From the NCBI RefSeq assembly GCF_001427305.1, contig NZ_LMFZ01000005.1, positions 62,001 to 126,000 on the forward strand: a stretch of 64,000 nt of DNA, read 5' to 3'. A program made the translations under genes and the position numbers. Origin of the DNA: Duganella sp. Root1480D1 (GTDB lineage: Bacteria > Pseudomonadota > Gammaproteobacteria > Burkholderiales > Burkholderiaceae_D). Shown here one piece after another: positions 15,591-62,287 of this stretch (position 1 is its first letter; every line of letters begins with the position of its first letter). A model generated the notes under the pieces. That model saw only the letters and a program-made list of their open reading frames with translations. It ran no database searches and was not told the DNA's origin.

Positions 15591-16048
15591 TAAGGTTTTG
15601 CTCCGAAGCGAGCTTGCGACTAGCCGTTGTACTCATTGTGGGTTGTTCAAGCCAACCTGCAAAAGACATCTCCAGTTATGGTGCCAGTGTAGGGATCGTA
15701 AACCACACTGGAAAATTCATTCACTCCGCATCAGTCAATGGTGGGGCAGGCGGTCACATGGAAGCTTGGGGTGCTGGCGCAGCGAACGTTTGCTGTGTTT
15801 CAGTCCCAAGGGTATGGTCTCCCGGAATGAAGTTGCTTGTGCGCTGGGATATGCCTGAAGGAAGTGTGCATGTCTACAAACAGGCCCTCGTCGAGGTGGA
15901 GAAGTACGATGAAACTGGTAGTGTCTATATCCACGTGCTTCCGGATGATGTGGTCAGGGTTGTGGTCTCAAACTATGACGGCTGGAGCTCCAAACATCCT
16001 ATCCCTCCGCCCAAAAAGCCCAACAAACAACTCCCCCCTTCACCATGA
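15587..16048 (+). CDS. DUF3304 lipoprotein, candidate immunity protein (copy 3)
   Basis: The 153-aa protein resembles copy 1 closely: KDISSYGASVGIVNHTGKFI, NVCCVSVPRVWSPGMKLLVR, and GSVYIHVLPDDVVRVVVSNY. The N-terminus MIRFCSEASLRLAVVLIVGC gives a lipobox IVGC, so it should be lipidated. The start overlaps the stop of the remnant copy (ATGA). A proline-rich tail (PPPKKPNKQLPPSP) differs from copy 1. It is intact and in the same strand order as the effector, so it may provide redundant or diverged protection. Confidence 0.78.
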   Translation: MIRFCSEASLRLAVVLIVGCSSQPAKDISSYGASVGIVNHTGKFIHSASVNGGAGGHMEAWGAGAANVCCVSVPRVWSPGMKLLVRWDMPEGSVHVYKQALVEVEKYDETGSVYIHVLPDDVVRVVVSNYDGWSSKHPIPPPKKPNKQLPPSP

Positions 16049-16454
16049 ACATGATTAACCAACTCGATAGTTCTCGGATGATTGCTTGTAGAGATTTGTT
16101 GATCCCGATCGCTATGCTTCTGGTGGCTTGCTTCACTCACTCTAGGGTAAATGGTGCTGGTGGCACAAACATGCCGCATGGGGAGCCGGTATGGCTGAGG
16201 TATGCTGTGTGATGGTCCCCAACATTTGGTACCCAGGTATAAAAATTACAGTCGAGTAGGATATGCCTGACGGAACTAAGCACAATTACAAGAGAAGACT
16301 GGTCGATGTCGAACAGTACAACGGACCCGGCAGCGTCTATCTACACTTCTTCGCAGATGATCAAGTACGTGTGGTTGTTACTCCATACGGTGTCCCAAGC
16401 CCCACGCATCCCGTTCAACGGCCACAAAAACCAACTTCTTTGCTCGGTTATTGA
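16045..16454 (+). pseudogene. Decayed DUF3304 lipoprotein gene (copy 4)
   Basis: Starting at the ATG overlapping copy 3's stop, the frame encodes a possible signal (IPIAMLLVACF) and then RVNGAGGTNM, but the block corresponding to GASVGIVNHTGRYIHS is missing. After GGTNM the homology jumps frame: WGAGMAEVCCVMVPNIWYPG is read in a second frame, then an in-frame TAG stands where the intact copies have Trp (VRW), and homology resumes as DMPDGTKHNYKR through GSVYLHFFADDQVRVVV to the TGA at 16452-16454. One deletion, one frameshift and one nonsense codon make it a clear pseudogene. Confidence 0.85.
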
Positions 16455-16465
16455 CGCCTCATGAT

Positions 16466-38015: not shown

Positions 38016-38158
38016 GGGGCGGGATTTTACCGGATTTACGCTACCGCAAGCCTCCCTATTGATGCAGATCAAAGGGCGTGACAGTCGAGTTGGTACACTT
38101 AAATAGCATTAGGAATCTGCTGACTGGGCTATAGGAATTTCTTTGGGAGATCTCAGCA

Positions 38159-45440: not shown

Positions 45441-46794
45441 CCGGCCTGCCGCTGAAGAAAAGGGGAAGCCAAGTGCTTCCCCTTTTCATGTCCCATTGTG
45501 GGAAGCATTCCTGTACTGGCTCAAGCTAGGCTTCGTCAGCTTCGGTGGCCCCGCCGGCCAGATCGCCATGATGCACACCGAACTGGTAGAGCGCCGGCGC
45601 TGGATCTCCGAGCACCGCTTCCTGCACGCCCTGAATTACTGCATGCTGCTGCCTGGTCCCGAGGCCACGCAGCTTGCCGTCTACATCGGCTGGCTGATGC
45701 ACCGCACACTGGGCGGCATCATCGCCGGCGTCTTGTTCGTTCTCCCTTCGCTGCTGCTGTTGATCGGCCTGTCCTGGGCCTATATGGCTTATGGAAGCCT
45801 GCCTGCCATCGCCGGCATCCTGTACGGCATGAAGCCCGCCGTCGTCGCCATCGTGCTGGCCGCCGCCTGGCGTATCGGCAAACGCACGCTGCGCAATCGC
45901 CCGTTGATGGCGATCGCGCTACTTGCCTTTATCGCCATCAGCTTCATCAAGCTGCCCTTCCCCGCCATCGTCGCCACCGCTGCCCTGCTGGGCTGGCTCG
46001 GCGGCCGCTGGCGCCCGGACCTGTTTGCACTGGGCGGCGCCGGGCATGGCCCCGCCGCCGCGCAAGGCGCGCACGCCCCCGCCCTGATCGACGATGACAC
46101 ACCGACGCCACCGCACGCCCGCTTCACCTGGGCCGGCCTGGCACGCGTCGTCGCCGCTGGCATCATCCTGATGGCAGGGGCCTGGCTACTGCTGGCCTGG
46201 CTGTTCGGCATCGACAAGCCCCTGGCGCAAATGGGCTGGTTCTTCACCAAGGCAGCCATGATGACTTTTGGCGGCGCTTACGCCGTCCTGCCCTATGTCT
46301 ACCAGGGCGGCGTCGAACATTTCCAGTGGCTGACTGCCGCCCAGATGGTGGACGGCCTGGCGCTGGGCGAAACCACGCCCGGCCCGCTCATCATGGTGGT
46401 CGCCTTCGTCGGCTTCGTCGGCGCCTGGACACACCAAGCCATCGCCGGCAATCCAGCGCTGGCCGGCATTGCGGGCGCCACTGTCGCGGCCTGGTTCACC
46501 TTCGTGCCATCGTTCATCTTCATCCTGGCCGGCGGCCCGCTGGTCGAGTCCACGCGCGGCAATATCCGCATGACCGCCCCGCTGACAGCCATTTCGGCCG
46601 CCGTGGTCGGCGTCATTGCCAGCCTGGCACTATTTTTCGGTATCCACGTGTTCCATCCAGCCAGCCAGTGGGAGTGGCCGGCCGTTGCAATCGCCGCTGC
46701 CGCGGCCATAGCCTTAATGCAGTACAAGCAAGGAACAATCCGCGTATTAGTGGCCTGTGCAATTGCTGGCATCGTGCTATCGTACCGGGTGTAA
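45433..46794 (+). CDS. chrA: ChrA, chromate transporter family protein
   Basis: The 453-aa membrane protein is a long-chain ChrA with two homologous halves: [20 protein letters not shown] with [20 protein letters not shown] in the first, and [20 protein letters not shown] with [20 protein letters not shown] in the second. It is predicted to export chromate or related oxyanions. The annotated ATG overlaps the rne stop by 8 bases; codons 9-19 of this start ([11 protein letters not shown]) are encoded by a strong hairpin, so a start after the hairpin is possible but no ATG or good ribosome site exists there. Confidence 0.9.
45457..45487 (+). terminator. Hairpin after rne, inside the 5' coding part of chrA
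   Basis: GAAAAGGGGAAGC-CAAGT-GCTTCCCCTTTTC: a perfect 13-bp stem with a 5-base loop, 17 bases after the rne stop. The strength and place suit a terminator or 3' stabiliser of rne mRNA, but no U-run follows and it is translated as part of chrA. Confidence 0.65.
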
Positions 46795-46807
46795 ACGAGC
46801 ACCCAGC

Positions 46808-47920
46808 ATGACCGAAAAAATCATCCTCCTGAATGATGGCCGCAGCCAGGCGCCGGCCATCCCGGCAACATTAGAAGCGCCGAGCGGCAGCCTGTTGGAC
46901 CGCTTCGCCCGTCCGCTGCATGACCTGCGCATTTCCATCACCGACCGCTGCAACTTCCGCTGCGTCTACTGCATGCCGAAGGAAGTGTTCGACAAGGACT
47001 ACCAGTACCTGCCGCACAACGCCCTGCTGACGTTTGAAGAGATCACGCGCATTGCGCGCCTGTTCGTCGAACACGGCGTCGAGAAGATCCGCCTGACCGG
47101 CGGCGAGCCGCTGTTGCGCAAGGACCTCGAGCGGCTGGTCGCCATGCTGGCCGGACTGCGCACGGCAAGCGGCAAGCAGCTCGACCTGACCCTGACCACC
47201 AACGGCTCCCTGCTGGCCCGCAAGGCGCAGTCGCTGAAAGACGCCGGCCTGCAGCGCGTCACCGTTTCGCTCGACGCCCTGGACGACGCCACCTTCAAGC
47301 GCATGAACGACGTCGATTTTGCAGTGGAAGACGTGCTGCACGGGATCGAGGTTGCACACAGCGTCGGCCTGGGCCCGGTCAAAGTGAACATGGTGGTCAA
47401 GCGTGGCATGAACGAGCAGGAAATCCTGCCGATGGCACGCCATTTCAACGGCTCGCCTGCCATCCTGCGCTTCATCGAGTTCATGGATGTCGGCACCTCA
47501 AACGGCTGGAACATGCACGATGTGGTGCCGTCGGCGGAAGTGGTGCGCATGATCGGCGCCGAAATGCCGCTGCTCCCCGTCGACCCGAATTACACCGGCG
47601 AAACCGCCGAACGCTGGCGCTATGTGGACGGCGGTGGCGAAATCGGGGTGATCTCCAGCGTAACGCAGGCGTTCTGCAAGGATTGTTCGCGCGCCCGCCT
47701 GTCGACCGAGGGCAAGCTGTACACCTGCCTGTTTGCATCGCGCGGCCACGACCTGCGTGCCCTGCTGCGCGAAGGCCGCAGCGATGCGGAAATTTCGTCC
47801 GCCATCAGCGCCTTGTGGCGCGTGCGCGGCGACCGCTATTCGGAACTGCGCACCATCAATACCGACGGCCTGGCGCTGGGCGCCGACCGCAAAGTCGAAA
47901 TGTCATACATCGGGGGATAA
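46808..47920 (+). CDS. moaA: MoaA, GTP 3',8-cyclase of molybdenum cofactor synthesis
   Basis: MoaA is the radical-SAM enzyme that converts GTP in the first step of molybdopterin synthesis. The 370-aa protein has the N-terminal [4Fe-4S]/SAM motif CNFRCVYC (Cys48, Cys52, Cys55), the GG motif [12 protein letters not shown], and a second cluster motif [20 protein letters not shown]. The C-terminal GG dipeptide (YIGG) needed for activity is present. ATG 46808 is 13 bases after chrA; an upstream frame extends into chrA and is not used. Followed by mobA-moeA. Confidence 0.97.
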
Positions 47921-47927
47921 GCAGACG

Positions 47928-49817
47928 ATGGAACACAGCATCAGTGCCTTGATCCTGGCAGGCGGCCGCGGCACCCGCATGGGCCGCGTCGACAAAGGCC
48001 TGCAGCCATTTCGCGGCGGCACGCTTGCCTCGCACGTGCTGCAGCGGCTCGCCCCCCAGGTGGCCAGCGTTACCATCAACGCCAACCGCAACCTCGGCGC
48101 CTACAGTGCCCTTGGCGCGGAAGTCCTGCCGGACGAACTGGAGGGCTACGAAGGCCCGCTGGCCGGACTGCAAACCGGCCTGCGTCATTGCGCGACGGAC
48201 CTGCTGCTGACCGCGCCGTGCGATTCGCCGTTCCTGCCACCGGACCTGGCGCAGCGCCTGTACGACGCGCTGAATGCACAGGGCGCCGATCTCGCCGTGG
48301 CATCCACACTGGAAACCGGCGAAGACGGCAAGACGCGCACGCAACTGCATCCCGTATTCTGCCTGGTGCGCAAGAGCGCCCTGCCCGCGCTGGACGACTA
48401 TCTGCAAACCGGCTCGCGCAAGATGGATGGCTGGTATAAGTCGATCAAGGTGGCCGAAGTGCTGTTCAACGACGCGGCGGCGTTCCGCAACATCAATACG
48501 CTGACCGAACTGCAGAACGAAGAAGACGCTGCCGCGAATCCTTCGCTGAAAGATGTGGCCAGTTGCCTGTCCGGCTACGATCCGGATGCGCTGCCGGTAC
48601 GGAACGCACAGCGCATCATCCGCGACTTCATCCAGCCGGTGCGCGGCATCGAGAAAGTCGCACTGCGCAGCGCCCTGGAGCGCGTGCTGGCGGCCGATGT
48701 GATTTCGCCGATCAATGTCCCGGCACATGACAATTCCGCCATGGACGGTTTCGCCTTTGCCGGCGCCCAGCTCAAAGCCGACGGCAATACCACGCTGAAG
48801 GTGATCGGCACCGCCTACGCCGGGCGCCCTTCCGCATTGAAGCCTGGCCCCGGCGAATGCGTGCGCATCATGACAGGCGGCGTCATGCCGGATGGCTGCG
48901 ACACCGTGCTGCCGCAGGAACTTGCAGCCGACTTGAGCGACGTGGCCGTGACGATTGCACCGAATACGGTGCGTACTGGCGACAACCGGCGCTTCAAGGG
49001 CGAAGACCTGGGCGCCGGCACGCCCGCTCTCCGCAAAGGGAAAGTGCTGCGCCCGGCCGACCTGGGCCTGGTGGCATCACTCGGCCTGGCCGAAGTGCCG
49101 GTGCAGCGCCGCCTGCGCGTAGCCTTCTTCTCCACCGGCGACGAATTGCGCTCGATCGGCGAACCTCTGGCGGAAGGCTGCGTCTACGACAGCAACCGCT
49201 ATACCTTGTTCGGCATGTTGCAGCGTCTTGGCTGCGATATTGTCGACATGGGCATCGTAAAAGATGACGCGGCATCGCTGGAAGAAGCCTTGCGCACGGC
49301 TTGCGAATGCGCCGACGCCGTGATCACTTCCGGCGGCGTGTCGGTGGGCGCCGCGGACTACACCAAGCAGGTCATGGCGACGCTGGGCGACGTGCATTTC
49401 TGGAAGATCGGCATGCGTCCCGGCCGCCCGATGGCTTTTGGCCGCATCCGCTCCAATGGCCACAGTGCCTACCTGTTTGGCCTGCCGGGCAACCCGGTGG
49501 CTGTCATGGTCACCTTTTACTTCTTTGCCCGCCACGCCCTGCTGCACATGATGGGAGCAGACTCGCCGGGCGACCAGATGCTGCGCGTGCGCTCGGCCCA
49601 GCCGATACGCAAGAAACCCGGCCGCACCGAATATCAGCGCGGCATCCTCGCCACGGCACTGGACGGCAGCCGCGAAGTGCGCATCACCGGCTCGCAAGGT
49701 TCCGGCATCCTGCGCTCCATGTCGGAAGCGAACTGCATGGTGGTGCTGCACGACGAGCAAGGCAACGTCGCCGAAGGCGATCTGGTCGACATAATCGTCT
49801 TCGACGGCCTGGTTTAA
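47928..49817 (+). CDS. mobA/moeA: MobA-MoeA fusion, molybdenum cofactor guanylyltransferase and molybdotransferase
   Basis: A single 629-aa frame joins two enzymes that are usually separate. Residues 1 to about 197 are MobA (LILAGGRGTRMGRVDKGLQ, GPLAGLQTGL, LLTAPCDSPFLPPDLA), which attaches GMP to molybdopterin. Residues about 205-629 are MoeA, beginning NPSLKDVASCLSGYDPDALP and continuing with PAHDNSAMDGFAF, RIMTGGVMPDGCDTV, SGGVSVGAADYTKQVM and GLPGNPVAVMVTF; it inserts molybdate. The two parts are joined by NEEDAAA without a stop codon. The gene starts 7 bases after moaA. A lost stop codon in the sequence is the alternative explanation. Confidence 0.9.
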   Translation: MEHSISALILAGGRGTRMGRVDKGLQPFRGGTLASHVLQRLAPQVASVTINANRNLGAYSALGAEVLPDELEGYEGPLAGLQTGLRHCATDLLLTAPCDSPFLPPDLAQRLYDALNAQGADLAVASTLETGEDGKTRTQLHPVFCLVRKSALPALDDYLQTGSRKMDGWYKSIKVAEVLFNDAAAFRNINTLTELQNEEDAAANPSLKDVASCLSGYDPDALPVRNAQRIIRDFIQPVRGIEKVALRSALERVLAADVISPINVPAHDNSAMDGFAFAGAQLKADGNTTLKVIGTAYAGRPSALKPGPGECVRIMTGGVMPDGCDTVLPQELAADLSDVAVTIAPNTVRTGDNRRFKGEDLGAGTPALRKGKVLRPADLGLVASLGLAEVPVQRRLRVAFFSTGDELRSIGEPLAEGCVYDSNRYTLFGMLQRLGCDIVDMGIVKDDAASLEEALRTACECADAVITSGGVSVGAADYTKQVMATLGDVHFWKIGMRPGRPMAFGRIRSNGHSAYLFGLPGNPVAVMVTFYFFARHALLHMMGADSPGDQMLRVRSAQPIRKKPGRTEYQRGILATALDGSREVRITGSQGSGILRSMSEANCMVVLHDEQGNVAEGDLVDIIVFDGLV

Positions 49818-50755
49818 GGGACCAGCAATGCCTGGATCTCCGGCTTCGCGTAGTTGTCGCGGGTGACCATGACGGCATCCGTCAGGATGGTCTGGTCTTT
49901 CATGGCTGCGCCCCGTGCAGCCGCCAGCGCCGCCTTCATTGAGAGTTAGCCCATCTGGCGCGGATCCTGCACCACCAAGCCGTTGATCTCCTGCTTGCCC
50001 AAACCTTCCAGCAGAAAATCGGTCGTATCGAAGCCCACGAATTACTTTTTCCCGGCAAGGCCCGCTTGCCGCAGCCCGCGCAGCATGCCATCGCTGGTCG
50101 ATTCATTGACCGCAAAAATGCCATCGAGATCGGGATGCCGTTCCAGCAATAGCGCCGCGCTGCGCGCCGCCTTGCCGCGCGTGCCGCCGCCATATTCGTC
50201 CGCCACGATATTGATGCGCGGCGCATTCTTCTTCAGGTAATCGATAAAGCCTTCAGCCCGCTCTTCCGTCGAGCCACTGCCTGCGATGGTGCGCAATATC
50301 GCCACCCTGCCCTGCCGGTTCAGCGAGCCGGCCAGCCGTTCCGCTGCCATCCTGCCTGCCGCAACATTGTTGGTGGTGATGAAATTGGTGTGCGCCTTGC
50401 CGTCCAACGCGGAATCCACCGCTACGACCTTGATCCCTAGCGCTGCAGCCTGCTCAACCGAAGCGACCACGCGGCTGCGATCGGTCGCTGCGATGATGAT
50501 GGCATCGACACCTGGCCTGGAATAAATGCGCAGGATCTCGATCTGCGAGTCGACGTCGTCATTGTGCGCCGGACCACGCCAGGTCAGTTGGACATGCCCG
50601 TCTTCCCGCATTGCGCGCTCGACTCCCTGCCGCATGAAAGTCCAGAAAACCTGGTCACGCGACTTGGGTATGAAGACGACCTCCAGGTCCCTGGCCAATA
50701 CCGGGCACACCGCCAGAGCGAAGTAACTCAGCAGGAGCACGCACCATTTTTTCAT
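49814..50755 (-). pseudogene. Periplasmic sugar-binding (RbsB/TorT-type) protein gene with two nonsense codons
   Basis: The frame starts with a signal peptide (MKKWCVLLLSYFALAVCPVL) and reads as a type I periplasmic binding protein: VVFIPKSRDQVFWTFMRQGV, SRPGVDAIIIAATDRSRVVA, FITTNNVAAGRMAAERLAGS, DGIFAVNESTSDGMLRGLRQ. A TAA at 50044-50042 interrupts it after AGLAGK, yet the same frame continues with FVGFDTTDFLLEGLGKQEI and GLVVQDPRQMG, meets a second TAA at 49948-49946, and ends with MKAALAAARGAAMKDQTILT and a TAA at 49816-49814. Without the two stops it would be about 313 aa. It overlaps the end of mobA-moeA tail to tail. No ABC transporter genes adjoin it. Confidence 0.82.
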
Positions 50756-50800
50756 GATTCCGCTATCTTACTCCCCAACCCCTCGGGTGTTTTCGCCGAT

Positions 50801-51148
50801 TCAGTAACGGTAACAATGGGCCTGCTGCGGCTCACTGCGCATCAATGCAGTGCTCCAGGCGGGATTGGTGGCTTGCTGGCATTTGACCAGGACTTCGGAC
50901 CAGGCTTTCAGGTTGGCTTCGGAGGCGTCCTTCTTCCATGCTTCGTCCATTGCGCGGGCGAAGGGAGTTTGCCGGCGCAGGGGGCTTAGCTGGCGGCCGA
51001 AGCTGTCGCGCGCGGGAACCATATCCGCCACTGAGACCGGCGGGCGGGCGGGGGGTTTTGCGCCAGGAATTTCAAGCTCTCCGCCCAACGCGCAGGCTGC
51101 TGTTGCTGGCAGCAGCAAGGCTAGCGCGAGGCGGGCGGCGAGTCCCAT
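50801..51148 (-). CDS. Small exported hypothetical protein
   Basis: A 115-aa protein with an N-terminal signal peptide (MGLAARLALALLLPATAACA); the LPATAAC stretch is a weak lipobox, so lipidation is uncertain. The rest is hydrophilic with RRQTPFARAMDEAWKKDASE and two C-terminal cysteines. No family recognised. It follows rmuC by 3 bases in the same direction, so it is likely co-transcribed. Confidence 0.6.
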   Translation of the reverse strand: MGLAARLALALLLPATAACALGGELEIPGAKPPARPPVSVADMVPARDSFGRQLSPLRRQTPFARAMDEAWKKDASEANLKAWSEVLVKCQQATNPAWSTALMRSEPQQAHCYRY

Positions 51149-51151
51149 CGT

Positions 51152-52402
51152 TCAGGTGGAGCTGTCGGCGTCGGCATCGACGCTGTCGGCCGCGCCCAGC
51201 ATGAGCAGGGCTTCTTCGGCAGGGAGCGCTTCGACGGACTTCAATTTGCGGGCCATCTGGCGGCTGCGGACTTCCGCGCTCTCGATATTGCGGGCAGCGC
51301 GTTCCAGCGTGGTCTTGGTCGCGGCAAGGACGTCGCCGAATTTGGCAAACTCCGTTTTCACGGCGCCCAGCACCTGCCACACTTCGGACGAACGTTTCTC
51401 CAGCGCCAGGGTGCGGAAGCCCATTTGCAAGCTGTTCAACAAGGCCGTCAACGTGGACGGGCCGGCGATGCTGACGCGGTTCACGCGCTGCAGTTCGTCA
51501 GCCAGGCCGGGACGGCGCATCACTTCCGCGTACAGGCCTTCGGTCGGCAGGAACAGGATGGCGAAGTCGGTAGTCATCGGCGGCGAAACGTATTTCTCGG
51601 CAATCGTTTTCGCTTCGCCGCGCACGGCACGTTCCAGCTCGCGGCCTGCGGCGGCAACTGCATCGGCATCGGCGCGGTCGGCCGCTTCCAGCAGGCGTTC
51701 GTATTGCTCCTTCGGGAACTTGGCGTCGATCGGCATCCACACTGGCGCCCCGCCCTCTTTCTGGCCCGGAAGCTTGAGTGCAAATTCGACGCGGGCGTTG
51801 CTGCCCGGGATGGTCTCGACGTTCTTCGCGTACTGGTCCGGCGTGAGAATTTGCTCGAGCAGCATTTCCAGTTGCACTTCGCCCCAGGTGCCGCGCGTCT
51901 TCACATTGGTCAGTACGCGCTTCAAATCGCCGACGCCCAACGCCAGCTGCTGCATTTCGCCCAGCCCCTGGTGCACGCGCTCCAGCCGCTCGGAGACCTG
52001 GCGGAACGATTCGGTCAGGCGGGTTTCCAGGGTTTCGTGCAGTTTTTCATCGACCGTCTTGCGCATTTCTTCCAGCCGCGCCCCGTTGTCCGCCTGCAGT
52101 TCGCGCATCTTGGTCTCCAGCGCCACGCGCACTTCCAGCAGGCGCCGTGTATTCGACTCGGTCAGCACCTCGATCTGGCGCCGCATGGTTTCAAGCTGCT
52201 GCACCGTGGCGGCATGCGACTGCGCCAGGATGTTGCCCATCTCCTGCCGCTGTGCCTGCGCGGTTGCCTGCAACTGCAGGCGCACTTCGCGTTCGACGCG
52301 ATCCAGTTGGTCGGCAACGTCGCTGCCGCGGCTGCGCAGCAGCGAGACAATTTGCAGGACAATAATCACGGCGGCCAGCGCCAGCAGGACGGTCAATTCC
52401 AT
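51152..52402 (-). CDS. rmuC: RmuC family DNA recombination-limiting protein
   Basis: The 416-aa protein has an N-terminal membrane helix (MELTVLLALAAVIIVLQIVS), a long coiled coil (about 25-170) and the RmuC core: LGVGDLKRVLTNVKTRGTWG then EVQLEMLLEQILTPDQYAKN, and DFAILFLPTEGLYAEVMRRP. RmuC proteins limit recombination at inverted repeats, probably through a nuclease-like fold. The ATG at 52402 overlaps the hemoglobin stop codon by one base. Relevant context is the number of perfect palindromes in this genome segment. Confidence 0.93.
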   Translation of the reverse strand: MELTVLLALAAVIIVLQIVSLLRSRGSDVADQLDRVEREVRLQLQATAQAQRQEMGNILAQSHAATVQQLETMRRQIEVLTESNTRRLLEVRVALETKMRELQADNGARLEEMRKTVDEKLHETLETRLTESFRQVSERLERVHQGLGEMQQLALGVGDLKRVLTNVKTRGTWGEVQLEMLLEQILTPDQYAKNVETIPGSNARVEFALKLPGQKEGGAPVWMPIDAKFPKEQYERLLEAADRADADAVAAAGRELERAVRGEAKTIAEKYVSPPMTTDFAILFLPTEGLYAEVMRRPGLADELQRVNRVSIAGPSTLTALLNSLQMGFRTLALEKRSSEVWQVLGAVKTEFAKFGDVLAATKTTLERAARNIESAEVRSRQMARKLKSVEALPAEEALLMLGAADSVDADADSST

Positions 52403-52794
52403 CAATCAGCCTTGTTCCGCATCCAGTCGGCGGTCTGGAAGAACGACTCCATCAGCCGCAGGCGCAATGGTTCTTCGATGCCGACATCCTGCATCGCCCA
52501 CGCCATGCAGCGCAGCCACTGGTCGCGCTCACTGGAACCGACGGCGAAAGGCAGGTGGCGCGCGCGCAGGCGCGGGTGGCCAAAGCGTTCAATGAACAGG
52601 TCCGGGCCGCCCATCCAGCCGCTGAGGAACCAGAACAGCTTGTCGCGCGAGCCGTCGGTGCTGGGCGGGTGCATGGCACGGATGCCGGCAAACTCCGGCT
52701 CCAGCTCCATCAGGTCGTAAAAACGGTCAACCATCGCGCGCAGCTTGGTTTCGCCGCCGATGACTTCATAAAGGGTGCGTGCTTCATCATTCAT
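52402..52794 (-). CDS. Truncated hemoglobin, group II-like
   Basis: The 130-aa protein is a two-over-two globin: TLYEVIGGETKLRAMVDRFY DLM, then GRP-like MHPPSTDGSRDKLFWFLSGW, GGPDLFIERFGHPRLRARHL with the proximal His in GHPRLRARH, and DQWLRCMAWAMQDVGIEEPL. The family binds O2/NO. The start at 52794 (MNDEARTLYEV) is preferred over a longer frame that overlaps the divergent kinase promoter. Coupled to rmuC by a one-base overlap. Confidence 0.9.
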   Translation of the reverse strand: MNDEARTLYEVIGGETKLRAMVDRFYDLMELEPEFAGIRAMHPPSTDGSRDKLFWFLSGWMGGPDLFIERFGHPRLRARHLPFAVGSSERDQWLRCMAWAMQDVGIEEPLRLRLMESFFQTADWMRNKAD

Positions 52795-52885
52795 AAAGCA
52801 ATGATAGCGCATGGACGTATTGATGTGGATCAAGCATAGTGCTGATTCTGCGCAAAATGCGCCAACAAACCGCCATCATTGCCGG

Positions 52886-54115
52886 ATGATCCGACGCCTT
52901 ATCCGAACCCGCCTGCGTGCCCGCAGTGCCGAGGAAATCGCCGACCTGCGCCTGGCTGCGTTAAGCTGGCTCGGAATCACCTGCTTTCCACTGTACTACG
53001 CAATTTTCGGCTGGCTGGTGCCGCAACCGTATGAGAACCTGGCGGCGCGCGCCATCGGCACCGCGCTCGGGATTGGCGGCTTGCTGGCAAGACGCCTTCC
53101 GCCGCGCCTGCGCGATCGCTACACCCTGGTGCTGGTGACCTATGAACTGCCATTCTTCTGCACCTTCATGTTCCTGATGAACCACGCCAACGTCACCTGG
53201 TCCCAGGTGATGCTGGTGATGCTGGTGGCGCTGTTCCACTTCGATTTCCGACTCGCGTTACGCGCAGGGGCCATCGGCATTTCCGCCGCCGTGCTGCTGG
53301 CAATCGCCCTGGGCGCCGGCAACATGCTGCTTTCCGCGGACGTGCTGCAACTGCTGCCGGTGCAGTTGTTCCTGGTCGGCTGGATGTGGGTGTTTTCGCA
53401 AAGCCGCAAGGCACTGGAAGAAGAAAAGCTGGAAGGCCTGGGCGAAGGCCTGGGCGCCGTGGCGCATGAAATGCGCACCCCGCTGGCCAGCCTGGATGCC
53501 AATGTACGCGGACTGTCGCGCATGCAGCAGCGCGCCGGGCAGGAAAACCCCGCGATGCGCCAGGCGCTGGGCCGCATGCAGTATGAAGTGCGCCATATGA
53601 ACCATATGATCGACCTGTTCCTGCTTAGTGCGCAAGCGGTGCGGCAAAAGCTGGACCCGCACGAAACCGTGTCCATGCTCGATACGGTCGAATCGGCATT
53701 GCGCCGCTATCCCTTCACCGGCGAGGTCCAGCGCCAGCTCGTTGCGCTGCAGGTGCGCAGCGACTTTCGCTTCGGCGGTCAGAATGAGCTCGCCATCATG
53801 CTGCTGTTGAACCTCCTGCGCAATGCAATGCAGGCGGTGCAGCGCGCGGGCAAAGGGCGGGTCAGGATCGTGATTGACGGCGGACGGCCAATTCCGCGTG
53901 TGCTGGTGATCGATACCGGCTGCGGCATCGCCCCCCGCCACCTGCCAATGATCTTCCAGCGCTTCTTCACTTATCCGGAGCATAATGGCGCCGGCATCGG
54001 CCTGGCACTATGCCGCCAGGTGATGCAAGCGTGGGAAGCGAAACTACATTGTGTCTCCCGCGAGCACGCATATGCTATCTTTGTGCTTGAATTTCCCTTA
54101 AAAGCCAGCCGCTGA
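52886..54115 (+). CDS. Six-TM sensor histidine kinase, CqsS/LqsS-like
   Basis: The 409-aa protein has an N-terminal region with about six membrane helices (residues 20-165) and no periplasmic domain, then a DHp domain with AVAHEMRTPLASL (phospho-accepting His194) and an ATPase domain with N box LLNLLRNAMQAV, G1 DTGCGIAP, F box FQRFFTYPEHNG and G2 GAGIGLALC. This compact layout and the AHEMRTPLAS H box resemble the quorum-sensing kinases CqsS, LqsS and Janthinobacterium JqsS. The start at 52886 (MIRRLIRTRLR) is chosen over a longer frame lacking a ribosome site. The gene is 3 bases upstream of its response regulator. Confidence 0.85.
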   Translation: MIRRLIRTRLRARSAEEIADLRLAALSWLGITCFPLYYAIFGWLVPQPYENLAARAIGTALGIGGLLARRLPPRLRDRYTLVLVTYELPFFCTFMFLMNHANVTWSQVMLVMLVALFHFDFRLALRAGAIGISAAVLLAIALGAGNMLLSADVLQLLPVQLFLVGWMWVFSQSRKALEEEKLEGLGEGLGAVAHEMRTPLASLDANVRGLSRMQQRAGQENPAMRQALGRMQYEVRHMNHMIDLFLLSAQAVRQKLDPHETVSMLDTVESALRRYPFTGEVQRQLVALQVRSDFRFGGQNELAIMLLLNLLRNAMQAVQRAGKGRVRIVIDGGRPIPRVLVIDTGCGIAPRHLPMIFQRFFTYPEHNGAGIGLALCRQVMQAWEAKLHCVSREHAYAIFVLEFPLKASR

Positions 54116-54118
54116 ACC

Positions 54119-55114
54119 ATGAAACTGCCCGTTTACGCCCACCCAACCATGACCGTCCTGGTGGACGACAGCGATACCTTCCTCCATAGCCTGGTATTCC
54201 AGCTCGATCCGATGCAGGCCAGCGTATGTTTCCATGACCCGCTGCAGGCGCTGGAATGGTTCAAGGCCAATGCCCAGAGCAGCGAATTGCCGCTGCAAGT
54301 GGATTTCGACAACCCGAACCAGTCGGCCGAGCAGCGCAATGTGGCGGTGGACCTGGAGCAGATTTACCGGATTTCCGGCCAGCGCCAGCGTTTTTCCATT
54401 CCCTCCGTGCTGGTGGTCGATTATTCAATGCCACAAATGAACGGCGTGGCATTCTGCCAGGCGATCCAGCACCTGCCGTGCAAGAAAATCCTGTTCACCG
54501 GCCAGGCCGACGAAAAGATCGCGGTGGATGCCTTCAACCGCGGCCTGATCGACCGCTATATCAAGAAAAGCGCGGACGATGCGCTGGACCGGCTGGAAGA
54601 GGAAGTGGCAGCGCTGCAAAAGGCCTTCTTCCAGGAGCAGTCGGAGACCCTGCTCGACATGCTGGTGCTGCACGAATTCAGCTTCCTGCGCTGTGGCGCG
54701 CTGGCCAAGGTGGTGCAGCAGTTGTACCAGGAGCACGGCTTTGTCGAGCACTACCCCTTCCCTAGCCCGAGCGGCATCCTGTTCTTCAAGGCCGACGGTT
54801 CGGCGCAATTGATGGTGGTGGAAACGGAGCGCGGATACGAATCGCAGGTGGAAATGGCACGCGACAGCGGCGCCCCACAGTCGCTGGTCGAAGCACTGGA
54901 AGAAAAGCGCATGCTGCCCTTCTTCCCGCCGGACGGCATGTACTCGGATGAAGTGGGCCAGCACTGGCACCGCTACTGCAAGGCGCCACAGGTATGCAAA
55001 GGGCTGGAGACCTATTACTGGGCCCTGTTCGAGGTTGAACCGGCCCTGCTCGACATCCAGCCTACCCCCTACGCAGAATTCCTGCGCCAGCACACCCCGC
55101 CGCTGGCCGCCTAA
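54119..55114 (+). CDS. Response regulator with expanded receiver domain, LqsR/JqsR-like
   Basis: The 331-aa protein has a receiver domain with acidic pair Asp16-Asp17 (TVLVDDSDTF) and phospho-acceptor Asp101 in VLVVDYSMPQMNG, followed by ILFTGQADEK and YIKKSADDAL. The two acidic sites are about 84 residues apart, roughly double the usual distance, because about 40 residues (around 45-90) are inserted. The C-terminal half (about 165-331; FSFLRCGALAKVVQQLYQEH, FPSPSGILFFKADGSAQLMV) has no DNA-binding motif. Size, late phospho-Asp and partner kinase recall Legionella LqsR. Output function unknown. Confidence 0.75.
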   Translation: MKLPVYAHPTMTVLVDDSDTFLHSLVFQLDPMQASVCFHDPLQALEWFKANAQSSELPLQVDFDNPNQSAEQRNVAVDLEQIYRISGQRQRFSIPSVLVVDYSMPQMNGVAFCQAIQHLPCKKILFTGQADEKIAVDAFNRGLIDRYIKKSADDALDRLEEEVAALQKAFFQEQSETLLDMLVLHEFSFLRCGALAKVVQQLYQEHGFVEHYPFPSPSGILFFKADGSAQLMVVETERGYESQVEMARDSGAPQSLVEALEEKRMLPFFPPDGMYSDEVGQHWHRYCKAPQVCKGLETYYWALFEVEPALLDIQPTPYAEFLRQHTPPLAA

Positions 55115-55123
55115 CGGCCCAGC

Positions 55124-55163
55124 CCGTGTCCCACCCTGGGGTCACACCCCAGCCGGGACACGG
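55124..55163. repeat. Imperfect palindrome between convergent genes, terminator-like
   Basis: Outer stem CCGTGTCCC / GGGACACGG and inner stem CTGGGGT-CAC-ACCCCAG with small internal bulges. It lies between the response-regulator stop (55112-55114) and the permease stop (55174-55172), so it can act as terminator for both. The inner GGGGT/ACCCC core recalls the other intergenic repeats, but the arms differ. Confidence 0.65.
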
Positions 55164-55171
55164 ACCCAGGC

Positions 55172-57697
55172 TTAAGCTTCCCGCAGAGTTTGCAGCGGGG
55201 GGTGGTTCAGCACATTGCGCAGGCCGAGCCAGCCGCCGATCACGGCGCAGATCGCGCCTGCCAGCAAGCCCGCCAGCCAGACCCAGGGACTGAAAGTCCA
55301 GGCGAACTTGAACTGGTAGGTTGCCAGTCCCCATCCCATCAGGCCGGCGCCGGTCGCGGCCAGCAGGCCGCCCAGGCCGCCAACCAACATGAATTCAATC
55401 AGTTGCGCCTGCGAGAGCTGACGGCGGGTGGCGCCCAGGGCACGCAGCAGGCCCGCTTCGCGGCGCCGCTCGTCCTGCGAGCCCATCAAGGCGGCATACA
55501 GCACCAGCACGCCGGACAGCAAAGTGAAGGCAAACAGGAATTCCACCGCCTGGATCACCTGGTCCAGCACCGATTGCACCTGGCGCAGGATGCCGCCCAC
55601 GTCGATGATGGTCAGGTTGGGGAAGTCGCGCGAGAGAGCATTGCCGGCAGCCAGGGCATTTTTCGGCAAATGGTAGGACGTGATCCAGGTTTGCGGCGTG
55701 TCGGCCATCGCAGCGGGATTGATGATGACGAAGAAGTTCACCCGCATCGAGCCCCATTCGAGCTTGCGCAGGCTGGTGATCTTCGCCTCCACCGGCGAAC
55801 CGGCGATATCGAAGCGCATCGAATCGCCCAGCTTCAGCCCCAGCGTCTTGGCGATGCCTTCTTCGACCGAAGCTTCAGCCGCAGTGCCGCCCATCGACCA
55901 TTTGCCCGCCGTGACCTGGTTCTGTGCCGGCAGATCGACCATGGTGGAAAGATTGAACTCGCGTTCGGCCAGTCCTTTTGCCCGTTCGTCGGTGTAGGTC
56001 TCGCTGGTGATCGCCTTGCCGTTCACCGCTACCAGGCGGCCGCGGATCATCGGGAACAGCGGCACCTCCTTCACGCCGGCAGCCTTCAGTTGCGCGGCGA
56101 TGGCATCCTTCTGGTCCGGCTGGATATTGATGATGAAACGGTTCGGCGCATCCGGCGGCATGGTATTGCGCCAGGCCGACATCAGGTCGCCGCGCACCAC
56201 GGTCAGCAGCAGCAAAGCCATCAGGCCAAGCGACAGCGATACCACCTGCACCACGGTGGCGCCAGGACGGCGGCGCAGCGACGTGACCGCAAAGCGCCAT
56301 GACTGGTGCGAAAACGCGTTGCGCAGCGGGCGCAAGGCTTGCAGGCCAAGCCAGCCTGCCAGGGCAAACACCGCAAAACCAAGCAGGAAGCCGCCGCCGG
56401 TTACCCCCGCCAGCTTGACGTCATTCGATTGCCACAGCAGCAGCGCGCCGAAAGCGGCGATGCCCAGGCCATAGGTCGCCAGCGCCGCAGGTTTCGGGGC
56501 AGCAGCTTCGCGGCGGATCACGCGGTTGTGCGGCACGTTCCGCAATTGCAGGATCGGCGGCAGCGCGAAGCCGGCCAGCAGGATCATGCCGGTGGCCAGG
56601 CCTTGCAGTGCCGGCAGCATGGTCGGTGCCGGAATATCGGTGGCCACCAGGCTTCCCAGCAGTTGCAGCAGCACATAGTGGGCGCCAAAACCCAGCAGCA
56701 CGCCAAGCAAGCTGCCCGCCAGGCCAACCACCAGGAATTCAACCAGGTAAATTACCGTCACCTGGTTTTGCGTCAGACCCAGGCAGCGCAACATGGCGCA
56801 GGAATCCAGGTGGCGCTGCATGAAGCGGCGCGCGGCCATTGCCACTGCCACGGCAGCCAGCATGGCCGACAACAAGCCAACCAGCGACAGGAAACGATCG
56901 GCGCGGTCAAGGGTGGCGCTCATTTCCGGGCGCCCCTCTTCCAGCGATTCGATGCGCACGCCGCGCACCTTGTCTTTCCTGATCAGGGCCTTCAGCCACT
57001 CGCCATATTCCTGCGCCGGCCTGGAGCTGGCGCCGGGTCCGGCCACCATCAGCCGGTAGCCAACACGTGAGCCTTCCTGTACCAGGTTGGTCGCTGGCAT
57101 ATCGGACAAGGCGAGGAAGACGCGCGGTGCGAAATTGATGAAGCCACCGCCACGATCCGGCTCCGCCGCAATCAGTTGCGTCACGCGGAACTGCTTGTCG
57201 CCCAGTTGCACCGTGCCGCCGACAGCCACCTCCAGCGAGGCGGCCAGCGCCGGATCGATCCACACCGTGCCCGCTGCCGGCGCGGCCGGCGCCGGGGTGC
57301 CGATGCTGTCATTGGCTTGTGCGATATCGGTGTTGACCTTGACGCGCCCGCGCAGCGGATAGCCCGGACTGACGGCTTTCAGCGTTACCAGCACGGAACG
57401 GGCTGCATCACCCTGCCCGGCCTGCGCCATGCTGGGAAAGGCCAGCGTGTCGGCCACCAGCAAGCCGCGCTTTTGCGCCTCTTCGCGCCAGGCGGCGGGC
57501 ACCGGATTGTCGGCTACCACCACCAGGTCGGCGCCCAGCAACTGGTGCGCATCGCGATTCAGCCCGCTGCGCAGGCGATCGATGAAGAAACCGGCGGCCG
57601 ACAGTGCCGCCACCGCCACTACCAGCGCTACCAGCAGGAAGCGCAACTGACCGGCGCGCCAGTCGCGCGCCGTCATCCTCAAGGCTTGTCGAAACAT
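55172..57697 (-). CDS. FtsX/YbbP-type ABC transporter permease
   Basis: The 841-aa membrane protein has the layout of the YbbP-like permeases: an N-terminal helix (RFLLVALVVAVAALSAAGFF), a large MacB-like periplasmic domain, a first FtsX bundle (FLSLVGLLSAMLAAVAVAMA, TVIYLVEFLVVGLAGSLLGV), two further helices, a second periplasmic domain and a second FtsX bundle at the C-terminus (LFAFTLLSGVLVLYAALMGS, LIEFMLVGGLGGLLAATGAG). E. coli YbbP works with the ATPase YbbA; no ATPase gene adjoins it here. It begins 6 bases after the deaminase gene, so they are probably co-transcribed. Confidence 0.88.
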   Translation of the reverse strand: MFRQALRMTARDWRAGQLRFLLVALVVAVAALSAAGFFIDRLRSGLNRDAHQLLGADLVVVADNPVPAAWREEAQKRGLLVADTLAFPSMAQAGQGDAARSVLVTLKAVSPGYPLRGRVKVNTDIAQANDSIGTPAPAAPAAGTVWIDPALAASLEVAVGGTVQLGDKQFRVTQLIAAEPDRGGGFINFAPRVFLALSDMPATNLVQEGSRVGYRLMVAGPGASSRPAQEYGEWLKALIRKDKVRGVRIESLEEGRPEMSATLDRADRFLSLVGLLSAMLAAVAVAMAARRFMQRHLDSCAMLRCLGLTQNQVTVIYLVEFLVVGLAGSLLGVLLGFGAHYVLLQLLGSLVATDIPAPTMLPALQGLATGMILLAGFALPPILQLRNVPHNRVIRREAAAPKPAALATYGLGIAAFGALLLWQSNDVKLAGVTGGGFLLGFAVFALAGWLGLQALRPLRNAFSHQSWRFAVTSLRRRPGATVVQVVSLSLGLMALLLLTVVRGDLMSAWRNTMPPDAPNRFIINIQPDQKDAIAAQLKAAGVKEVPLFPMIRGRLVAVNGKAITSETYTDERAKGLAEREFNLSTMVDLPAQNQVTAGKWSMGGTAAEASVEEGIAKTLGLKLGDSMRFDIAGSPVEAKITSLRKLEWGSMRVNFFVIINPAAMADTPQTWITSYHLPKNALAAGNALSRDFPNLTIIDVGGILRQVQSVLDQVIQAVEFLFAFTLLSGVLVLYAALMGSQDERRREAGLLRALGATRRQLSQAQLIEFMLVGGLGGLLAATGAGLMGWGLATYQFKFAWTFSPWVWLAGLLAGAICAVIGGWLGLRNVLNHPPLQTLREA

Positions 57698-57703
57698 TGA
57701 TTG

Positions 57704-59046
<1,343 letters not shown>

Positions 59047-60969
59047 ATGACCATTTTTGACAACTACGCAGCACGCTACGAGCGCACCAAGGAAGAGGAA
59101 ATGTCCCTCTCCGAATATCTCGCGCTTTGCAAAAAGGACCGCCTGACCTACGCTTCAGCGGCGGAACGCATGCTGGCTGCGATTGGCGAACCGACCCTGG
59201 TTGATACGCGCAACGATACGCGCCTGTCCCGCATCTTCGCCAACAAGGTCATCAAGATTTATCCCGCCTTCCGCGAGTTCTACGGCATGGAAGACGTCAT
59301 CGAACAGGTAGTCGCCTACTTCCGCCATGCCGCGCAAGGCCTGGAAGAGCGCAAGCAGATCCTCTACCTGCTGGGCCCGGTTGGCGGCGGCAAGTCCTCG
59401 ATTGCGGAAAAGCTCAAGCAATTGATGGAAGAAGTGCCGTTCTATTGCCTGAAAGGTTCGCCGGTGAATGAATCGCCGCTCGGCCTGTTCAGCGAGGCAG
59501 AAGACGGCACCATCCTGGAAGAAGATTACGGCATCCCGCGCCGCTACCTGCGCAATATCCCTTCGCCATGGGCGGTCAAGCGCCTGCACGAATTCAATGG
59601 CGATATCAACCAGTTCCGCGTGGTCAAGCGCTACCCTTCGGTGTTGAAGCAGACCGCCATTTCCAAGACCGAACCAGGCGACGAGAACAACCAGGACATT
59701 TCTTCCCTGGTCGGCAAGGTCGATATCCGCAAGCTGGAAGACTACGCCCAGGACGATCCGGACGCCTACAGCTATTCCGGCGGCCTGTGCCTGGCCAACC
59801 AGGGCCTGATGGAATTCGTGGAAATGTTCAAGGCCCCGATCAAGGTGCTGCACCCGCTGCTGACCGCCACCCAGGAAGGCAACTACAAGGGCACCGAAGG
59901 CTTTGGCGCCATCCCCTTCGAGGGCATCATCCTGGCGCACTCGAACGAGTCGGAATGGAAGAGCTTCAAGAACAACCGCAACAACGAGGCATTCCTCGAC
60001 CGGATCTATATAGTGAAGGTGCCGTACTGCCTGCGCGTCACCGACGAAATCAAGATCTACGAGAAGCTGCTGCACAATTCCTCGCTCGACAAGGCGCCTT
60101 GCGCCCCCGGCACGCTGCGCATGATGTCGCAGTTCGCCATCCTGTCGCGCCTGAAAGAGCCGGAAAACTCGAGCATCTTCAGCAAAATGCTGGTGTACGA
60201 CGGTGAAAACCTCAAGGACACCGACCCGAAAGCCAAGTCCATCCACGAGTATGTTGACTACGCCGGGGTCGACGAAGGCATGAGCGGGCTGTCCACGCGT
60301 TTCGCCTTCAAGATCCTGTCCAAAGTGTTCAACTTCGACTCGACCGAGGTGGCGGCCAATCCGGTGCACCTGCTCTACGTGCTGGAACAGCAGGTCGAGC
60401 GCGAGCAATTCCCGCCGGAGACCGAGCAAAAATACTTCTCCTATATAAAAGAGCACCTGGCCCAGCGCTATGTCGAGTTCATCGGCAAGGAAATCCAGAC
60501 CGCCTACCTGGAGAGCTACTCCGAATACGGCCAGAACATCTTCGACCGCTACGTCACGTTTGCCGATTTCTGGATCCAGGACCAGGAATACCGCGACCCG
60601 GATACCGGCGAGAGCTTCGACCGCGAATCGCTGAACAATGAACTGGAGAAGATCGAAAAGCCGGCCGGGATTTCGAACCCGAAAGACTTCCGTAACGAGA
60701 TCGTCAACTTCGGGCTGCGGGCGCGCGCCAACAACGGCGGCAAGAACCCGGCCTGGACCAGTTACGAAAAGTTCCGCACGGTGATCGAGAAGAAAATGTT
60801 CTCCAATACCGAAGAACTGCTGCCGGTGATCTCCTTCAACGCCAAGGCCAGCGCCGAGGATGCCAACAAGCACGCCGACTTCGTGGCGCGCATGGTGGAA
60901 AAGGGTTACACGGCCAAGCAGGTCCGGCTGCTGTGCGAATGGTATCTGCGCGTGAGGAAGTCGTCCTGA
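59047..60969 (+). CDS. prkA: PrkA, AAA+/serine protein kinase
   Basis: PrkA (YeaG) is an AAA+ domain protein with a PrkA C-terminal kinase-like domain, linked to nitrogen starvation and stress. The 640-aa protein has MTIFDNYAARYERTKEEEMS at the N-terminus, a Walker A GPVGGGKSS (Lys116), and GTEGFGAIPFEGIILAHSNE with the sensor-like region following. The C-terminal helical part includes AQRYVEFIGKEIQTAYLESY. A clear AAAGGA ribosome site precedes the ATG. It is the first gene of the conserved prkA-yeaH-spoVR operon. Confidence 0.97.
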   Translation: MTIFDNYAARYERTKEEEMSLSEYLALCKKDRLTYASAAERMLAAIGEPTLVDTRNDTRLSRIFANKVIKIYPAFREFYGMEDVIEQVVAYFRHAAQGLEERKQILYLLGPVGGGKSSIAEKLKQLMEEVPFYCLKGSPVNESPLGLFSEAEDGTILEEDYGIPRRYLRNIPSPWAVKRLHEFNGDINQFRVVKRYPSVLKQTAISKTEPGDENNQDISSLVGKVDIRKLEDYAQDDPDAYSYSGGLCLANQGLMEFVEMFKAPIKVLHPLLTATQEGNYKGTEGFGAIPFEGIILAHSNESEWKSFKNNRNNEAFLDRIYIVKVPYCLRVTDEIKIYEKLLHNSSLDKAPCAPGTLRMMSQFAILSRLKEPENSSIFSKMLVYDGENLKDTDPKAKSIHEYVDYAGVDEGMSGLSTRFAFKILSKVFNFDSTEVAANPVHLLYVLEQQVEREQFPPETEQKYFSYIKEHLAQRYVEFIGKEIQTAYLESYSEYGQNIFDRYVTFADFWIQDQEYRDPDTGESFDRESLNNELEKIEKPAGISNPKDFRNEIVNFGLRARANNGGKNPAWTSYEKFRTVIEKKMFSNTEELLPVISFNAKASAEDANKHADFVARMVEKGYTAKQVRLLCEWYLRVRKSS

Positions 60970-61018
60970 TTGAGAAGTGGGATAATCAGGACGCGCCAAT
61001 CAAGCAGGCAGGAGGCAC

Positions 61019-62287
61019 ATGACTTACCTCATCGACCGTCGTTTGCAGGGCAAGAACAAGTCCGCGGTCAACCGCGAACGATTTTTGCGGCGTTACAAGG
61101 GCCAGATCAAGGATGCGGTCGGGCGCGCCATCAAGGGGCGCTCGATCACCGACATCGAGAATGGCGAAAAAGTATCGATTCCCGTCAAGGACGTGAACGA
61201 GCCCTCGTTCGGCCACGCCCACGGCGGCGTCTGGGAAGTGGTCAACCCCGGCAATGAGGAATACCAGAAAGGCGACCAGATCAACCGCCCCAAGGGCGGT
61301 GGCGGCAGCGGCCGTGGCCGCGCAGGCAACAGCGACCAGACCAGCGAGGATGATTTCATCTTCGAACTGTCACGCGAAGAATTCATGAACTACTTCTTCG
61401 AAGACCTGGAACTGCCGCACATGATCAAGACCCAGCTCACGGCCACCACCGAATTCAAGCCGCAGCGTGCCGGGTACACGGTGTCGGGCACGCCGTCCAA
61501 CATCCATGTGCTGCGCTCCCTGCGCGGCGCTCTCGGCCGCCGCATTGCGGTGGGCGGCAATTCGCGCAAGCGCCTGATCGAGGCCGAGCGCGAACTGGAA
61601 GAATTGCTGGTGGCCGGGGCCCCGCTCGACGATCCTGAGGTGATCGAGCTGAAGCGGCTGATCCACCACCTGCATACGCGGCTGCTGGCCATCCCCTTCA
61701 TCGACCCCTTCGACCTGCGCTATTCCAACCGCATCAAGGTGCCGAAGCCGATGACCCAGGCCGTGATGTTCTGCATCATGGACGTGTCGGGCTCGATGGA
61801 CGAGCAGCGCAAGGATACGGCCAAGCGCTTCTTCATCCTGCTCTACCTGTTCCTCAAGCGCGTGTACGACAAGATCGAGGTGGTGTTCATCCGCCACCAT
61901 ACGGCAGCGTCGGAAGTGGACGAGAACGAATTCTTCCACTCGCGCGAATCGGGCGGCACCGTGGTGTCCTCGGCCCTGCACCTGTTAAACAAGATCATCG
62001 ACGAGCGCTTCGGCGGCGGCAGCTGGAATGCCTATGTGGCGCAAGCTTCCGATGGCGACAACTGGGATAACGATTCCGTGCTGTGCCGGCAACTGCTGGT
62101 CAATACCATCATGCCCAAGGTGCAGTACTACACCTATGTCGAGATCACCGACGGCCCGCCGCAGAACCTGTGGGAGCAGTACGCCCAGATTCCCGAATAC
62201 CACCAGCACTTCGCCATGCAGAAGATAGTCACGCCGGCCGATATTTATCCGGTGTTCCGCGAACTGTTCAAGAAGCAACCAAAATGA
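61019..62287 (+). CDS. yeaH: YeaH/YhbH family protein (DUF444, von Willebrand A-like)
   Basis: The 422-aa protein starts MTYLIDRRLQGKNKSAVNRE, the DUF444 signature, has a Gly/Arg-rich linker (about 95-115), and a vWA-like domain with the metal-binding motif DVSGSMDEQRK (Asp255). Function unknown; always encoded with PrkA and SpoVR and thought to act in the same stress pathway. GGAGGCAC precedes the ATG. Its stop overlaps the spoVR start (ATGA). Confidence 0.95.
   Translation: MTYLIDRRLQGKNKSAVNRERFLRRYKGQIKDAVGRAIKGRSITDIENGEKVSIPVKDVNEPSFGHAHGGVWEVVNPGNEEYQKGDQINRPKGGGGSGRGRAGNSDQTSEDDFIFELSREEFMNYFFEDLELPHMIKTQLTATTEFKPQRAGYTVSGTPSNIHVLRSLRGALGRRIAVGGNSRKRLIEAERELEELLVAGAPLDDPEVIELKRLIHHLHTRLLAIPFIDPFDLRYSNRIKVPKPMTQAVMFCIMDVSGSMDEQRKDTAKRFFILLYLFLKRVYDKIEVVFIRHHTAASEVDENEFFHSRESGGTVVSSALHLLNKIIDERFGGGSWNAYVAQASDGDNWDNDSVLCRQLLVNTIMPKVQYYTYVEITDGPPQNLWEQYAQIPEYHQHFAMQKIVTPADIYPVFRELFKKQPK

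Follow-up and report, generated by a model that had tools for sequence, protein, structure and literature searches.

A JqsS/JqsR-type quorum-sensing pair without its synthase in Duganella sp. Root1480D1: conserved relay and a probably retuned sensor

The kinase and regulator genes

The DNA considered here (the window) is a stretch of 64,000 nucleotides from Duganella sp. Root1480D1 (contig NZ_LMFZ01000005.1), in which two adjacent genes at 52886-55114 are, judged from sequence and gene order, the syntenic orthologues of JqsS and JqsR, the sensor kinase and the response regulator of a hydroxyketone quorum-sensing system whose synthase is JqsA. Loci that keep jqsR, with or without jqsS, in genomes without a synthase are called orphans below.

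The jqsS orthologue (52886..54115, plus strand) encodes a sensor histidine kinase of 409 amino acids, identified by its place (synteny) and by its sequence (a tree of kinase cores, in which it stands with the JqsS proteins of other orphans, adjoining synthase-linked JqsS). Its catalytic part matches Pfam HisKA (33.4 bits) and HATPase_c (61 bits), both above the cut-offs. The H box AHEMRTPLAS begins at residue 193, so that from its position and conservation H194 (codon 53465..53467, plus strand) would be the phospho-acceptor; the alignment has it in 15/15 orphan and 41/41 synthase-linked receptors. An AlphaFold2 model (mean predicted local distance difference test, pLDDT, 78.3; predicted template modelling score, pTM, 0.53) places six helices ahead of the core, at residues 15-44, 52-68, 73-98, 103-116, 121-141 and from 151 onward, which bears out the six-transmembrane kinase with this H box proposed in a preliminary description of the locus. 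The reading frame could also open at 52811; the start at 52886 is preferred, since the stretch upstream of it carries a promoter box and the start is kept in close relatives.

Recognition of the sensor part is less direct. No match to a named CqsS/LqsS family stands among the best 25 of 71 NCBIfam matches, which are other kinases and kinase-domain families that align only from about residue 164; in the PDB sequence search no match to the kinase began before residue 142. Homology of the sensor therefore rests on synteny, on H-box spacing and on numbering taken from the literature. Foldseek returned mainly cytoplasmic kinase structures among the 50 matches listed for the kinase model, and BceS (8g3a_D), though aligned over 418 columns, was discarded as a fold match at a root-mean-square deviation of 19.5. 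To our knowledge there is no solved sensor structure of the hydroxyketone-receptor kind.

The jqsR orthologue (54119..55114, plus strand) encodes a regulator of 331 amino acids that belongs to the LqsR family. Its best phmmer match in the PDB is 6sy9, entitled as the L. pneumophila response regulator LqsR, with E 1.9e-41 over residues 3-313, that is over both halves; Foldseek ranks the same structure first for the regulator model (pLDDT 78.6; E 1.4e-25, TM-scores 0.76/0.81). The predicted phospho-acceptor D101 (codon 54419..54421, plus strand) aligns with the receiver aspartate of 6sy9. Pfam Response_reg covers only residues 91-154 (profile positions 42-104), which is consistent with a long insertion before the aspartate, as had been suggested to explain its late position. 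The acceptor of LqsR, placed near residue 108 in the preliminary description, is D108 in the literature (PMC3376566). The host genome encodes one full-length LqsR-type protein, and a search of it for a second kinase pair, such as the preliminary description had called for, gave no second close kinase, the next best being 35% identical over the catalytic part only.

The synthase was searched for with the NCBIfam model NF005526 (cut-off 428 bits) and with a JqsA query by tblastn. No CqsA/LqsA/JqsA synthase exceeds the cut-off in the host genome, which is rated 100% complete, and the three matches below it score 188, 149 and 47 bits. Judged by sequence, neighbours and general family features, KBL and BioF are the likely identities of the first two, and a further pyridoxal-phosphate enzyme that of the third; bioA- and bioD-like open reading frames (ORFs) adjoin the BioF-like match. 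Within 45001-62000 of the window the JqsA query gave only a chance match of 25 bits (E 3.1). Concealment of the synthase by assembly gaps is unlikely, since single-contig orphan genomes exist (G106, G210, G228, G299, G319, G324 and G372).

Distribution among relatives and loss of jqsA

The family was sampled with 392 genomes, in which E 1e-15 or better was taken as a JqsR match and E 1e-70 or better as a synthase match; the genomes are draws from larger groups and not an exhaustive set, and the alignments are automatic. JqsR was matched in 139 genomes and the synthase in 112, 111 of them above the NF005526 cut-off. The host genus contributes 54 genomes with JqsR, the host included, and 34 of the 54 have the synthase; one further member (G376) has neither. 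When the loci of the other 53 and of 7 further family genomes were compared, a conserved slot was found, with the order RmuC, globin, jqsA where present, jqsS, jqsR, permease, Add and PrkA. Three loci (L080, L116 and L118) show none of the flanks, and extra sequence lies between the flanks in a few. In the window the slot is bounded in the same way as in synthase-bearing loci, by RmuC on the left (51152..52405, minus strand; Pfam PF02646 and synteny) and an FtsX-type permease on the right (55172..57697, minus strand; Pfam PF02687 and synteny). The bacterial globin gene (52402..52833, minus strand; Pfam PF01152, 139.9 bits, and synteny), whose start is probably an ATG at 52812 or 52794, abuts the jqsS promoter in the window and lies directly behind jqsA in most synthase-bearing members of the genus.

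In all 41 synthase-bearing loci, including the 34 of the genus, jqsA adjoins jqsS. The 19 orphan loci of relatives gave zero jqsA matches at E up to 10, and none was found genome-wide at E 1e-70, so that the absence of a synthase, earlier noted for the window, holds for the whole host genome and for 19 related ones. The 20 genus members without synthase, the window counted, keep jqsS-jqsR in 15 cases and jqsR alone in 5 (G228, G309, G319, G374 and G388). Outside the genus there are 8 family genomes with JqsR and without a synthase match, and 7 of these have no jqsS in the examined stretch; G238, the remaining one, is poorly assembled, has stop codons in numerous genes and contains pieces of both jqsA and jqsS, for which reason it was left out of the orphan count. 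An order-wide sample of 399 genomes has JqsR at E 1e-30 in 26, 23 of them outside the family; 14 of these 23 carry a synthase over the cut-off, and the 11 with a JqsS-like kinase beside JqsR all belong to those 14. Thus no jqsS-jqsR pair without synthase was met outside the host's clade in either sample, in keeping with the earlier remark that such pairs normally accompany a synthase. Three genomes (G148, G192 and G222) have second JqsR copies (L209, L214 and L210) with no JqsS or synthase match in the examined stretch; in each of them the other JqsR is at most about 1.6 kb away from a synthase match.

Close kin that bear names are Duganella sp. CF458, Duganella sp. Root336D2, Massilia eburnea, Pseudoduganella violaceinigra and P. 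guangdongensis. Among 80 named loci, which are partly the same genomes as the family sample and hence not independent of it, all three genes are present in 70, jqsA is absent in 9 and jqsR stands alone in 1. P. violaceinigra was among the genomes of Haack et al., who reported JQS in every strain except one (PMC5080296); the parts of that paper available to us hold no mention of its missing jqsA. Literature searching, by which subscription papers were mostly not covered, found no report on jqsS-jqsR pairs without jqsA.

The tree built from three proteins of the flanks (58 rows; quick search with SH-aLRT support and no bootstrap) puts all 20 orphans on one side of one branch, with support 99, and its outgroup rows carry jqsA. 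In the kinase-core tree (55 rows) the 14 orphans included form one clade with support 97. Locus L062 (genome G106) was dropped from the core tree, as from the rate test and the count of invariant positions given below, and L080, L116 and L118, whose stretches lack the flanking genes, are absent from the flank tree and the rate test. Most simply, then, jqsA would have been deleted once and long ago between the globin gene and jqsS, and jqsS itself would have been lost twice later. That the kinase was replaced horizontally was considered and is unsupported, since both the core tree and synteny are in accord with the flanking genes.

Selection on the pair and change of the sensor

The ratio of nonsynonymous to synonymous substitution rates (dN/dS) was compared between the parts of both proteins. 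In the window's clade (six genomes) the sensor has the highest mean (0.22), ahead of the output part (0.116), the kinase core (0.085) and the receiver (0.028), and the flanking genes lie at 0.063-0.134; for sensor, core, receiver and output in this order, three orphans of another branch give 0.19, 0.03, 0.02 and 0.04, and four synthase-bearing groups give 0.12-0.28, 0.15-0.17, 0.06-0.14 and 0.07-0.18. Such low values indicate that the pair is under purifying selection and that the sensor does not evolve neutrally. Since the predicted relay, from kinase H194 to regulator D101, is strongly constrained, the pathway is very probably still used. Decay of the locus is rejected by the low dN/dS with the exception of G106, where jqsR is, alone among the orphans, split into two frames (L062, about 7900-9900) and the kinase ORF is short too; that genome is listed as a single contig, so that either true loss or an error of sequencing could account for the split.

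Rates of protein change were compared on a single fixed tree, the flanking proteins serving as the scale for branch lengths, for 52 rows that include 33 synthase-bearing genus members. Compared with the latter, the orphan clade changed its membrane sensor (residues 20-176; 52943..53413 on the plus strand) 2.04 times as fast, and the kinase core, receiver and output at 0.80, 0.80 and 0.78 of the rate; the sensor/core ratio of ratios is 2.56 (95% range 1.89-3.44 from 100 column resamplings). A count of positions points the same way. Of the 26 sensor positions that are invariant in 41 synthase-linked receptors, 24% on average are changed in 14 orphans, and 0-7% in ten synthase-linked groups that were each set against the rest as a control. 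For invariant core positions the orphans (5%) fall among the control groups (0-9%).

Some of the changed positions can be placed relative to the ligand. Correspondence with CqsS and LqsS was derived from JqsS synteny, the distance to the H box and published numbering, according to which W104 and S107 of CqsS are head-group residues and F160, F162, F166 and C170 are gatekeeper and tail-length residues (PMC3376566). The head-group pair for the α-hydroxyketone is broken in the window: the counterpart of W104 is kept as W105 (codon 53198..53200), and the serine that corresponds to CqsS S107 and LqsS S114 is replaced by V108 (53207..53209). F41 (53006..53008) and C92 (53159..53161) stand where all 41 aligned synthase-linked JqsS have Trp and Phe, and W166 to F170 (53381..53395) bring bulky residues to the gatekeeper (F166) and tail-length (C170) positions of CqsS; F162 is the counterpart of CqsS F162 by H-box distance. 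All these codons lie on the plus strand.

The distribution of these residues follows that of the synthase. W41 and F92 are absent from all orphans (L062 has a gap at 41), and S108 is found in 41/41 and 69/70 receptors of two synthase-linked sets and in 0/15 orphans, W105 being kept in 15/15. In the 11 receptors of other families of the order, whose kinases are at best 31-39% identical to the queries, W41 and F92 are again complete (11/11 each) and S108 is present in 10/11. The sole exception of the 70 named receptors belongs to a synthase-bearing locus of a Rugamonas sp. metagenome-assembled genome (L178) with Ser at 105 and Ala at 108, and it may bind a different ketone head group. Site 108 differs among the orphans (V, W, C or L), which points to repeated change, and the window's clade is uniform at 41, 92, 108, 166 and 170 (6 + 6 rows, partly the same genomes).

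Promoter box, explanations and meaning

The palindrome TTGATGTGGATCAA (52820..52833, no strand assigned) lies ahead of jqsS and fits both the pattern TTGAN6/7TCAA, named JAI-1 motif by Haack et al. (PMC5080296), and the Anr/FNR-type consensus TTGATNNNNATCAA, which is the Anr motif as printed in PMC6588701. The form TTGAN6TCAA stands between the globin gene and jqsS (or jqsR) in 20/20 orphans, 19 of which fit TTGATNNNNATCAA. Synthase-bearing loci have the box between jqsA and jqsS (39/41 in the looser and 31/41 in the stricter form), and in 0/38, in either form, does it lie between globin and jqsA. It would thus belong to the old jqsA-jqsS promoter and have been kept when the deletion of jqsA placed the globin gene beside it. 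In the host genome there are 17 TTGATNNNNATCAA sites against 0 for a reversed control pattern, and an Fnr-family regulator is encoded (NF008365, 249.5 bits, cut-off 228). Among the ORFs near the sites, one reads from sequence as a universal-stress-type protein and one as a polyhydroxyalkanoate-synthase-type protein; others look unrelated to anaerobic genes or resist reading. We infer that the JAI-1 motif is an Anr/FNR box; neither 'FNR' nor 'Anr' is mentioned in the two papers that were found to name JAI-1. The second perfect TTGATNNNNATCAA site of the window (38059-38072) overlaps the start of a minus-strand ORF of 257 amino acids that reads like a pseudouridine synthase. In the synthase-bearing genus loci L081-L113 the globin gene lies close behind jqsA in the same direction, with 26-218 bp between match edges (20-bp margins included), so that a jqsA-globin transcript is possible.

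Taken together, the data are best explained if a quorum receptor pair was retuned, probably away from its ancestral hydroxyketone, after the loss of jqsA, so that it keeps its relay and senses another cue. In the simplest case jqsA would have been deleted a single time, in the common ancestor of a Pseudoduganella/Duganella clade, with the relay retained. The membrane sensor would then have changed fast, also at residues that nearly all synthase-linked receptors keep, and the window's clade would have settled on the set F41, C92, V108, W166 and F170. The kinase is predicted to be deaf to the ancestral JAI-1-type ligand and to answer instead a cue that is probably lipophilic and of a different shape; JqsR would still carry the output, and transcription would remain linked to the old promoter box. 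Orthology, loss, the single clade, selection and the sensor shift are supported by sequence comparison; we infer phosphotransfer, the change of ligand and promoter control. Where the preliminary description had left it at an orphan receptor or one that senses something else, the change of the sensor would favour the latter.

Several observations weigh against this explanation. Within the window's clade alone the flank-scaled sensor rate is just 1.31 times that of synthase-bearing relatives, and the branch that leads to the clade is long (0.94 for the sensor, 0.22 for the flanks), which assigns much of the sensor change to older branches. The sensor dN/dS of the clade lies within the synthase-bearing range, and the contrast between sensor and core comes partly from a slower core. 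The change is tied to one loss event, hence the correlation amounts to one clade. S108 is missing also in two synthase-linked receptors, and the sensor has retained W105, F90, N99 and R55 among other residues, so that part of the ancestral pocket may remain. Finally, the five relatives without kinase indicate that the pair is dispensable there.

Three other explanations account for parts of the same evidence. An orphan pair could eavesdrop, as LuxR solos do, on the hydroxyketone of neighbouring Duganella, Janthinobacterium or Massilia; this would suit the retention of the pair, of the six-helix sensor and of W105, and relatives that carry the synthase are frequent in the family sample. A pair that listens to the same ligand would be expected to retain its pocket, however, and here all orphans, wherever the positions are aligned, have lost W41, F92 and the head-group serine, with bulky W166 and F170 added in the window's clade, which makes eavesdropping rather unlikely. 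About equally unlikely appears a ligand-free pair, in which the sensor would be a mere membrane anchor and the kinase would be controlled by how strongly it is expressed, by the state of the membrane or by a different kinase. That the sensor is the fastest-evolving part, and that JqsR apparently can work without this sensor in five genomes, would agree with it, but a mere anchor is at odds with a sensor constrained as in the four synthase-linked groups and uniform at the five substituted positions across the clade. It is most improbable that the system is no orphan at all and that its ligand is made by an unlinked or unrelated synthase which the same genome encodes: although jqsR and the synthase lie on separate contigs in G037 and G021 of the family and in G545 and G696 of another family, no candidate passes the thresholds given above in the complete host genome or in the other 19 orphans.

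A wider form of the retuning explanation is offered tentatively and may well be wrong. By it, the loss of the synthase turned a quorum receptor into a clade-wide sensor of a foreign or environmental lipophilic cue with a remade pocket, a two-component counterpart of LuxR solos; transcription of the locus would, before and after the loss, be under oxygen- or nitric oxide (NO)-responsive Anr/FNR control through the JAI-1 motif, with the globin gene left directly under that promoter.

Elsewhere in the window, GC content falls to 0.519 at 12001-16000, against 0.58-0.66 in most other blocks of 4 kb. This low-GC patch lies in a run of ORFs (8987-16048, plus strand) that read like VgrG, an adaptor and a hydrolase of 732 amino acids that resembles type VI secretion lipase effectors, with two similar small lipoproteins, one to each side of it, that could be a duplicated immunity gene (all names read from the ORFs). 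Rfam gave nothing at gathering scores on 11000-17500.

Among described systems, JqsA/JqsS/JqsR of Janthinobacterium sp. HH01 likewise has adjacent kinase and regulator genes and the same type of promoter motif, but jqsA lies there beside jqsS, whereas the window has no synthase and near-invariant sensor residues are changed (PMC3566124, PMC5080296). LqsR of Legionella pneumophila is homologous to the regulator over receiver and output, and LqsS is a six-helix kinase too (PMC3376566); Legionella, however, has LqsA and a second kinase, LqsT (PMC10653808), and keeps the head-group serine S114 (PMC3376566) that is lost here. CqsS of Vibrio shares with the window's kinase the six-transmembrane sensor, the phospho-acceptor H194 and the W104 counterpart. 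Yet CqsS, as a hybrid kinase, carries a receiver itself and acts via LuxU/LuxO (PMC3376566), and the counterpart of its S107 is lost here. PhcX of Ralstonia is, as here, an LqsR-family regulator that outlived the Lqs synthase, but the R. solanacearum complex lacks the Lqs kinases as well and has phcX beside phc genes, while here the cognate kinase is in place (PMC10653808). The LuxR solos PluR and PauR also have no linked synthase, carry substituted ligand-contact residues and sense other signals (PMC5007282); they are LuxR-type regulators, whereas the receptor in the window is a six-transmembrane kinase. A cognate kinase that is kept with a changed sensor seems to be new.

A globin gene in a quorum-sensing operon would fit control by oxygen or NO. 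With W41 and F92, the comparison across the loss points to two likely ligand residues of hydroxyketone receptors in addition to W105, S108 and F162, which were already known. The clade would provide a natural experiment on what becomes of a membrane quorum receptor after its signal gene is lost, in which the relay is kept and the sensor is apparently rebuilt.

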